Positions 19,798-25,037 of a DNA stretch of 51,144 nucleotides are shown piece by piece. The stretch is from an archaeon (GTDB lineage Archaea > Thermoproteota > Nitrososphaeria > Nitrososphaerales > CADDZS01): NCBI GenBank assembly GCA_902812485.1, contig CADDZS010000003.1:1-51144 (forward strand), given 5' to 3'. Both the position numbers and the translations under genes were made by a program. The notes under the pieces were generated by a model. The model was not told the DNA's origin. It saw only the letters and a program-made list of their open reading frames with translations, and did not search any database. Numbering within the stretch: position 1 is the first letter of the stretch; each line of letters begins with the position of its first letter.

Positions 19798-21255
19798 ATG
19801 GGTGCCCTGACAAATTTCATAAAGGCAGCAGCAACGGTGTTGCCAGAAATTAGGAAACCCACGCGAAAGCCTTCTCTAAATGAAAAGCTGATCTGGACTG
19901 GAATAGCAGTCATAGTTTATATGGTCATGGCTGTAACGCCTCTGACTGGAATTCCTGTAGGTGCTCAAAGTCAATTCTCCTATTCGAGTATCATATTTGC
20001 CTCTCAACAAGGCACATTGATGACTCTTGGCATCGGTCCAATCGTAACCGCGGGACTGATACTGCAGCTTCTTGCTGGTTCAGAGATTATCAAAGTCGAT
20101 TTCCAAAATCCTGATGATAGGGCACTATTCACGTCGGCGACGAAATTCCTCACCATTATAGTAATAGCAGTTGAGGCTTCAGCCTATCTGCTAGGCGGAC
20201 TCTTCGGGCAGATCAACGCGGCAGCTTCAATTGCTATATTCTTCGAACTCTTTGCTGCATCCGTAATCGTAATGCTCTTGGACGAACTCGTGCAAAAGGG
20301 TTGGGGAATCGGTAGCGGAGTGAGCCTTTTCATTCTTGCAGGAGTAGCGCAACGGGTCATGTGGGACATTTTTAGCCCCCTGCAAGTTCCAGTAACCCAG
20401 GGGGTCACATCGATCTACGGTTTTGTCCCATTCTTGGTTAGCGCGATCGCGGCTGGTCATCCAGCTGAAGCGCTTTTCCGTCCAGATGCTCCTCAATTTC
20501 CAAGTGGCTTTGGGCTAATCTTGACACTTGCAGCGATGCTGATTGTGATATATGTCGAAGGAATGAGAATAGAGATTCCAATAACTTCTACAAAATATAG
20601 AGGGTTCGCAGGAGTTTATCCGATAAAGCTTCTCTACGTTTCTAACATACCTGTTATACTGTTCTCGGCGCTAGTCGCAAACATATCCTTCTTTGCAGCC
20701 TATCTCTGGAAACAGTATGATCTCAACAACTCGAACCATATCTTCAACTATTTTGCAAAGTATAATCTGACTTCGGTGACTTCTGCTCAGTCCCCTCTCT
20801 CATACCAGCCTCTCAAGGGTTCGCTTATTTATTACATGACCGGTCCTACGACTCCTGTCTACGCAGCAGGGACCGACTGGATCAGAGCTCTAACTTATGT
20901 TGCATTCGCCGTGGCATTCTCCGTAATGTTTGCAAGGATTTGGGTTGAGATCGGCGGACTATCTCCCAAAGCCGCTGCAAAGAATCTGATTGGCGCTGAT
21001 GTCATGGTACCAGGATTTCGGAGGACAGGGACTTCTGTCGAGGCTATCCTTTCAAAATACATTCCAGTTATCACTATTCTCGGGGGAATATTCATCGGTC
21101 TTTTGGCTTCCCTTGCTCAGCTTTTGGGAGTTTACGGGACTGGGGTTGGTCTCCTCCTAATGATCGACATTATAATACAGTACTATCAGATGCTAGTCAA
21201 GGAGCAGCTCGAGTCTATGATGCCAAGACTCGGAGCCTTGCTTGGACGCAAGTAG
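19798..21255 (+). CDS. secY: Preprotein translocase subunit SecY
   Basis: 485 residues with ten hydrophobic segments. The first (KLIWTGIAVIVYMVMAVTPL), the plug-region GIGPIVTAGLILQLLAGSEI, the GWGIGSGVSLFILAGVAQRV segment and the cytosolic loop ending RIEIPITSTKYRGFAGVYPI are all present. It forms the protein-conducting channel with SecE and Secβ. It follows uL15, the usual archaeal position. The external loop around residues 300-360 is long and rich in Asn, Tyr and Ser. Confidence 0.96.
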   Translation: MGALTNFIKAAATVLPEIRKPTRKPSLNEKLIWTGIAVIVYMVMAVTPLTGIPVGAQSQFSYSSIIFASQQGTLMTLGIGPIVTAGLILQLLAGSEIIKVDFQNPDDRALFTSATKFLTIIVIAVEASAYLLGGLFGQINAAASIAIFFELFAASVIVMLLDELVQKGWGIGSGVSLFILAGVAQRVMWDIFSPLQVPVTQGVTSIYGFVPFLVSAIAAGHPAEALFRPDAPQFPSGFGLILTLAAMLIVIYVEGMRIEIPITSTKYRGFAGVYPIKLLYVSNIPVILFSALVANISFFAAYLWKQYDLNNSNHIFNYFAKYNLTSVTSAQSPLSYQPLKGSLIYYMTGPTTPVYAAGTDWIRALTYVAFAVAFSVMFARIWVEIGGLSPKAAAKNLIGADVMVPGFRRTGTSVEAILSKYIPVITILGGIFIGLLASLAQLLGVYGTGVGLLLMIDIIIQYYQMLVKEQLESMMPRLGALLGRK

Positions 21256-23545: not shown

Positions 23546-24679
23546 TTGGAAGGTGATGTTGTTCTTTTACCTGAGGAAGAAAGAAGGCCCGTCATCGACC
23601 CGCCGACATTCAAGAAAATGATGTCGCAATCGCAAGATCTTCTTACAATAAGAGAGGAGGAAAGCGACCCAAAATTCGGCTCTGAACCCCACAAACGATC
23701 CCTTTCAGATTACCTTAACTACGGAATCATTATCCTTGACAAACCTCAGGGTCCAACGAGCCATCAGGTGGCAGCATGGGTACGAAAGATGCTGAATCTT
23801 GAGAAAGCGGGTTACAGTGGAACGCTTGATCCTCCGGTCTCGGGCATACTTCCGGTGGGACTTGGGGATGCAACCAAGGCGCTTACAGTTTTGCTCTTTG
23901 GTCCAAAGGAATATGTTGCGGTGGCTAGGATTCACGACTCTGTTCCCGATCAGCTACTCCGTGAAACAATTTCTCAGTTCACGGGGAGCGTTTACCAGAA
24001 GCCTCCCCAGAGATCCTCCGTGAGGAGAGCCACGAGAACTCGTCACATCTACGAATTGGAAATTCTCGAAAAGTTTGGAAATCTTCTGCTCTTGAGAGTC
24101 CTTTGTGAAGCTGGAACATATGTACGAAAGCTGGTCTATGACATCGGCGAAGTCCTCGCCGTAGGCGCTACAATGGCCGAACTTAGACGAACGAGAGTAT
24201 GCCAATTCGGCGAAGATGTTTTGGTGAGACTGCAAGATCTCTTTGAATCTAAGGCGAATTACGAAGAAAAGCGCGATGAAAGTGGTTTGAGAAGAGTGAT
24301 CCGTCCCGTCGAGGAAGCACTTAATTTCCTTCCGAAAATCATAGTGAGAGATTCAGCAGTCGAATCGATCTGTCAGGGCGCTCAGCTTGCTGTTCCAGGG
24401 ATATTGTCTCTTTCGAAGGCACTATCAAAGGGAGATTTTGTTGGCCTTTTCACGTCAAAGGGCGAGATTATCGCTATAGCGGAAGCTCAGATGGCAGCTG
24501 ATGAAATCAGGACTCAAGAGCACGGCATCGCAGCCCTGACACGAAGAGTGATCATGAAGCAAGGGACTTATCCGAGGATGTGGAAGACTAAAGGCGAAGC
24601 AGAAACTCTATCAGAAGAAATGCTAAAGGACTCGATTCTCGGTTCGATAAATACGCTCGGTCAAAGTTCGAAAGAATGA
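23546..24679 (+). CDS. cbf5: H/ACA RNA pseudouridine synthase Cbf5
   Basis: 377 residues from TTG. The TruB-type catalytic domain has GIIILDKPQGPTSHQVAAWV and the active-site aspartate in KAGYSGTLDPPVSGILPVGL. A C-terminal PUA domain spans about 270-350 (VPGILSLSKALSKGDFVGLF, then MKQGTYPRMW). Cbf5 is the catalytic core of archaeal H/ACA RNPs with Nop10, Gar1 and L7Ae and also makes Ψ55 in tRNA. N- and C-terminal charged extensions are lineage-specific. The next gene is a tRNA. Confidence 0.94.
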   Translation: MEGDVVLLPEEERRPVIDPPTFKKMMSQSQDLLTIREEESDPKFGSEPHKRSLSDYLNYGIIILDKPQGPTSHQVAAWVRKMLNLEKAGYSGTLDPPVSGILPVGLGDATKALTVLLFGPKEYVAVARIHDSVPDQLLRETISQFTGSVYQKPPQRSSVRRATRTRHIYELEILEKFGNLLLLRVLCEAGTYVRKLVYDIGEVLAVGATMAELRRTRVCQFGEDVLVRLQDLFESKANYEEKRDESGLRRVIRPVEEALNFLPKIIVRDSAVESICQGAQLAVPGILSLSKALSKGDFVGLFTSKGEIIAIAEAQMAADEIRTQEHGIAALTRRVIMKQGTYPRMWKTKGEAETLSEEMLKDSILGSINTLGQSSKE

Positions 24680-24804: not shown

Positions 24805-25037
24805 GCCGGGGTCGCCTAGAGCATACCAATACTTACAAAGATGTGTGGCTTGCAGGTAACCTGGTAGGGCGCAGAAAATTCTCGCACAATCTTGGATTAC
24901 AAGAGAAAGAAAGAGGAGATTCATGCGTTAGCCTGGAGTAGTAAGTGGATTCCGTCAATTGTGATGAAAAGTGAAGCCAAGCTCGCGGCTAGCCTGTGAC
25001 CGTCAAGGTCTCGTGGGTTCAAATCCCACCCCCGGCG
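24805..25037 (+). tRNA. tRNA interrupted by three likely introns, probably tRNA-Val(UAC)
   Basis: A 7-bp acceptor stem is perfect: GCCGGGG (24805-24811) with CCCCGGC (25030-25036) and G73 at 25037. The T arm is GTGGG-TTCAAAT-CCCAC (25013-25029). Removing about 24820-24859 joins AG to CCTGGTA and yields a normal D arm (GCCT/GGGC) with A14, G18G19 and A21. Removing 24872-24890 and 24902-25001 brings CTTGG (24891-24895) opposite TCAAG (25003-25007) around a seven-base loop with U33, anticodon UAC (24898-24900) and A37. The product is exactly 74 nt. TTAC (24897-24900) can pair with GTGA (24996-24999) across the last intron, and TACC (24824-24827) with GGTA (24855-24858) across the first. The presence of a tRNA is sure; isotype and exact splice points are less so. 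Confidence 0.75.

Follow-up and report, generated by a model that had tools for sequence, protein, structure and literature searches.

Most of the literature on tRNA introns rests on hyperthermophiles. Archaeal tRNA genes are known to carry up to three introns each (PMC8450103; PMC4390854), and the densest genome surveyed, as these two papers cite it, is that of Pyrobaculum calidifontis, with 71 introns in 46 genes (Sugahara 2008, cited in PMC4390854 and PMC8450103). As described in those sources, members of the Thermoproteales (P. calidifontis and P. islandicum) have up to three bulge-helix-bulge (BHB) introns per gene, at canonical and noncanonical positions, and a genome-wide intron load. 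Noncanonical BHB introns also are known in Thaumarchaeota, for which a dedicated search model exists (tRNAscan-SE 2.0 survey, PMC8450103). In three Asgard genomes from wetland soil, 92 to 95% of the tRNA genes are interrupted, and in Atabeyarchaeia/Freyarchaeia more than half of them carry several introns, often at noncanonical positions (PMC11291895).

The gene described here comes from the draft genome of a Nitrososphaerales archaeon (G000; 2.36 Mb in 211 contigs, 94.5% complete). It lies on contig C3, the 51,144-nt stretch of DNA that was analyzed as a whole and is referred to as the window. The SecY gene of the window (19798-21255) has 77 to 80% identity to MAGs named Nitrososphaerales or Thaumarchaeota archaeon, and a plasmid collection searched with the window gave no match. 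Neither ARAGORN at default settings nor Rfam at curated cut-offs called the tRNA in the window. The 233 bp at 24805-25037 (plus strand) form a single interrupted tRNA gene with exact outer coordinates. It is a class II tRNA-Ser(GGA) gene divided into four pieces by three introns, as follows.

23546-24679, plus strand: open reading frame just upstream of the tRNA gene and the syntenic anchor in relatives, presumably a truB-like pseudouridine synthase gene (named by sequence recognition, without a database match)
24805-24819, plus strand: exon 1 (positions 1-15), GCCGGGG TC GCCT AG, pairing with the 3' acceptor strand and identical in relatives
24820-24859, plus strand: D-loop intron at 15/16, 40 nt, core 4/4, at the same position in G002, G004, and G006
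24860-24874, plus strand: exon 2 (positions 16-29), CCTGGTA GGGC G CAG, from the parse and orthologue comparison
24875-24930, plus strand: intron at 29/30, 56 nt, core 4/4, position and core shared with interrupted orthologues
24931-24938, plus strand: exon 3 (positions 30-37), GC CT GGA G, which reads GCCTGGAA in relatives
24939-24990, plus strand: canonical intron at 37/38, 52 nt, core 3/4, outer helix 5/5
24991-25037, plus strand: exon 4 (positions 38-73), with A38, GCCTG, the variable arm, T arm, acceptor, and G73, from the parse and orthologues

Three introns is the known archaeal maximum, and the structure of the gene is of a known kind and unusually dense for its group. The original prediction had pointed out that multi-intron tRNAs are best known from Thermoproteales; up to three introns are indeed known there, but the present organism belongs to the Nitrososphaerales. 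Once spliced, the mature body is 85 nt long, with G73 present and no CCA encoded at the 3' end of exon 4. All stems are intact, the acceptor being GCCGGGG/CCCCGGC. The 7-nt anticodon loop (CTGGAGA) is closed by a 5-bp stem (CAGGC/GCCTG) and places the anticodon GGA at 24935-24937; GGA also is called in the intact syntenic orthologues. The variable region of 16 nt forms a long arm in exon 4 (TGACCGTCAAGGTCTC) with its own stem (GACC/GGTC). ARAGORN called the spliced form, supplied from 24806 and so one base short of the full 85-nt body, as Ser(gga) with a variable-arm stem. The acceptor, D, and T arms are as originally described, as are T8, A14, G18G19, A21, G15-C48, and G73, and the D-loop intron, estimated then at about 40 nt, is exactly that length.

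The splice sites were compared with the BHB core, in which the exon end forms four base pairs with the intron end, flanked by 3-nt bulges. At 15/16, GCCT (24814-24817) pairs fully with AGGT (24854-24857), with an inner helix (GCA/TGC) and no outer helix. At 29/30, GCGC (24869-24872) pairs fully with GCGT (24925-24928), and in the orthologues the intron-side core is GCGT or GCGC and is paired in every case. At 37/38, three of the four pairs form between CTGG (24933-24936) and GCGG (24985-24988), with one G-G mismatch, and the outer helix is the anticodon stem. Judged by this pairing, all three are predicted to be archaeal BHB tRNA introns with the characteristic 4-bp core and 3-nt bulges, and the cores are kept in the orthologues. 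The BHB kind of intron had been anticipated, and it holds at the revised sites. The noncanonical sites listed in the literature include 29/30, and 15/16 is absent from the list as quoted in PMC4090602; because the quoted list ends in "etc.," we do not claim 15/16 as a new intron site.

The gene also was parsed with a structural search that used no template, synteny, or isotype and judged combinations of exons and introns against cloverleaf rules and core pairing. This search recovered the same three introns and the anticodon GGA in the window, with a score of 50.7. When the interior was shuffled with the acceptor and T arm held fixed (n = 60), the mean score was 42.1 (SD, 2.0; maximum, 46.5), and none of the 60 shuffles reached 50.7. 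Runner-up parses of the third intron fell 0.6 to 4 below the best score, varying with the search settings. Ser(GGA) also was returned for L013, L014, and L016, the D-loop junction of L013 being set two bases before the orthologue-based one. A Ser(GCT) parse of the window, obtained by spliced alignment on nucleotide templates of the tRNAs of genome G016, was overturned by the structural parser and the orthologues. The interrupted tRNA gene at 24805-25037 is not a product of chance: the same exons occur at the same place in related genomes, and the structural score agrees. The originally proposed tRNA gene with three introns, one of them in the D loop, is borne out by both.

In relatives, a tRNA-Ser(GGA) gene, intact or interrupted, occupies the same place behind the truB-like gene; it is found at a similar distance behind secY at loci L011, L013, L014, L016, and L018-L020. 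It is intact behind the same gene cluster at L011, L017, L019, and L020; at L013, L014, L016, and L018 it is interrupted, with 5' and 3' ends nearly identical to those of the window gene. Compared with the window, the exons of the orthologues are 94 to 95% identical and the introns 20 to 57%, a contrast expected if the exons are under selection and the introns are free to drift or to be replaced. The 5' half is identical, letter for letter, through position 27 to the tRNA-Ser(GGA) of G016, which belongs to another family of the same order. Within the family, a pattern for exon 4 found the gene in eight of nine genomes, and every complete copy carries the 29/30 and 37/38 introns (the copy in G008 is cut by the contig end). 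G000, G002, G004, and G006 have their third intron at 15/16, and G001 and G005 lack a third one. In G007 (L179), the D-arm intron is 30 nt long and lies instead at 21/22, with a CTGG/CTAG core, position and core being read from the sequence by eye.

The gene had been assigned to tRNA-Val(UAC), its introns being taken as 40, 19, and 100 nt long, and ARAGORN does accept the 74-nt body spliced in that manner as Val(tac). We regard this assignment as scarcely credible, as the locus is Ser(GGA) by its orthologues, structural parse, and splice cores. The 19-nt intron placed after position 26 would have a core of only 2/4, and the 100-nt intron placed at 37/38 only 1/4, where the revised introns measure 56 nt (at 29/30) and 52 nt. 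The UAC sits inside the 29/30 intron, without valid splice motifs; so does the TTAC of the proposed TTAC/GTGA complementarity, which is not a splice-site core. The 74-nt cloverleaf is a chance fold that takes no account of the long variable arm, and to obtain it the GCCTGGA exon, conserved in all relatives, would have to be thrown out as intron. A valine isotype accounts for neither G73 nor the conserved variable arm. G73 and position 46 had been flagged as odd for that isotype; both are there, and both are normal for serine, in which G73 is usual and "position 46" is the class II variable arm. All orthologues are Ser(GGA), and synteny had already refuted valine. A separate tRNA-Val(UAC) gene, itself with three introns, is located elsewhere in the genome (G000, contig C101, L088, 548-710), and the present locus fits another isotype better.

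The contrast between exons and introns also bears on whether the locus is a tRNA-Ser pseudogene in decay, with introns that have ceased to be spliced out. Conserved exons beside divergent introns, together with stems that are all intact, argue against decay, as does the lack of any other Ser(GGA) gene in own-genome searches, the anticodon being needed for UCC/UCU codons. The G-G mismatch in the 37/38 core would suit a pseudogene, but the same 3/4 core is found at 37/38 in L016 and L174. With the change to G37, where relatives have A37, and the presence of other tRNA debris in the draft (L094) also on its side, decay remains very improbable, slightly less so than valine. The locus is almost certainly a functional tRNA-Ser(GGA) gene, with a predicted precursor of at least 233 nt and introns at 15/16, 29/30, and 37/38.

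For this tRNA-Ser(GGA), we infer that transcription would yield a precursor at least that long, on which the archaeal tRNA splicing endonuclease would make six cuts at partly relaxed BHB sites. The enzyme would be of the alpha2beta2 type, as expected for the Nitrososphaerales group; alpha2beta2 endonucleases are expected in Thaumarchaeota (PMC4090602) and cut relaxed motifs (PMC6379350). Ligation of the exons would yield the 85-nt class II tRNA, with CCA added afterwards. The pairing suggests that the D stem would form only once the 15/16 and 29/30 introns had been removed, because both cores draw on that stem: its 5' strand (positions 10-13) is taken up by the core at 15/16, and G24-C25 of its 3' strand by the core at 29/30.

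Every tRNA gene examined in G000 needs a splicing endonuclease, yet no gene for one (PF01974) was found in the draft with the Pfam model and a relative's protein as queries. PF01974 genes are present in 30 of 30 relatives, most of which have two, and because of this we read the missing gene as most likely due to incompleteness of the draft.

The Rfam tRNA model reported nine genes over its cut-off in G000, each exceeding the length of an uninterrupted tRNA, and 5 to 23 in the eight other family members, versus 12 to 42 in other families of the order. With only nine genes recovered from a 94.5%-complete genome, the standard tRNA model makes genomes of this family wrongly look tRNA poor. By T-arm patterns, the structural parser, and reading by eye, about 28 tRNA genes were examined in G000, each with at least one intron; the survey by T-arm patterns is incomplete, and the genome-wide intron count is approximate. 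There were about 1.8 introns per gene among confidently parsed genes and about 2 by a hand count over all genes. Parser outputs passing a score of 43 contained 52 introns, some misparsed, a count that is approximate because end-preserving shuffles reach 46.5; the parser is weak on intron number at L004, L005, L006, L022 (minus strand), L027, L028, L030, and L032. Introns at 15/16 recur in the Gly(GCC), Gly(TCC), Asp, Val(UAC), and Ser(GGA) genes. No match was found at E 0.05 among the 52 parsed introns, and intron transposition within G000, as similar introns in different tRNA genes, was not detected.

This load resembles that of the Thermoproteales as quoted above, but the lineage is a different one. 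Intron transposition is described there, whereas no intron similarity was detected in G000, and, unlike in the multi-intron genomes of that order as far as the quoted sources describe them, every gene examined in G000 is interrupted. The Asgard genomes are alike in intron load, the point on which we liken them, and belong to an unrelated lineage. Other Thaumarchaeota are of the same group, and 107 noncanonical introns were counted over all their surveyed genomes together (PMC8450103), against several dozen introns in G000 alone. The gene class itself is ordinary, and what draws interest is the intron load across the lineage and the polymorphism of the D-arm introns. Among related genomes, orthologues at the tRNA-Ser(GGA) locus have zero, two, or three introns, and a D-arm intron is inserted at either of two points; therefore, intron gain versus loss is directly testable in an archaeal group outside hyperthermophiles. 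We are evenly poised on the broader proposal that few known lineages are as dense in tRNA introns as this Nitrososphaerales family, with nearly all tRNA genes interrupted, about two introns per gene, and D-arm introns (recurrent at 15/16, at 21/22 in G007) that different genera have gained or lost independently at a single orthologous tRNA-Ser locus. If this is true, the family would offer a tractable natural series in which to study how tRNA introns are gained.

Some individual tRNA genes of G000 had further features. Parsed in the simplest way, L027 (Gly TCC) and L005 (Arg TCT) both have C33 in place of U33 ahead of an anticodon that starts with U34, which may reflect a misplaced junction. 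On contig C143, the minus strand of L094 (about 440-640 of the reverse complement) holds a tRNA-Leu-like sequence with an intact 5' part and variable arm, in which the T stem and acceptor no longer pair (GTGGGTTCGAATCCTGTAGTCAAAT); it could be a gene that has been cut short, a scar left by integration, or a join made in assembly. The 15/16 introns of Gly(GCC) (L022, plus strand) and Gly(TCC) (L027) share the start ACAC and the end GTGGGAAA and possibly represent a single old intron already present before the two genes were duplicated.
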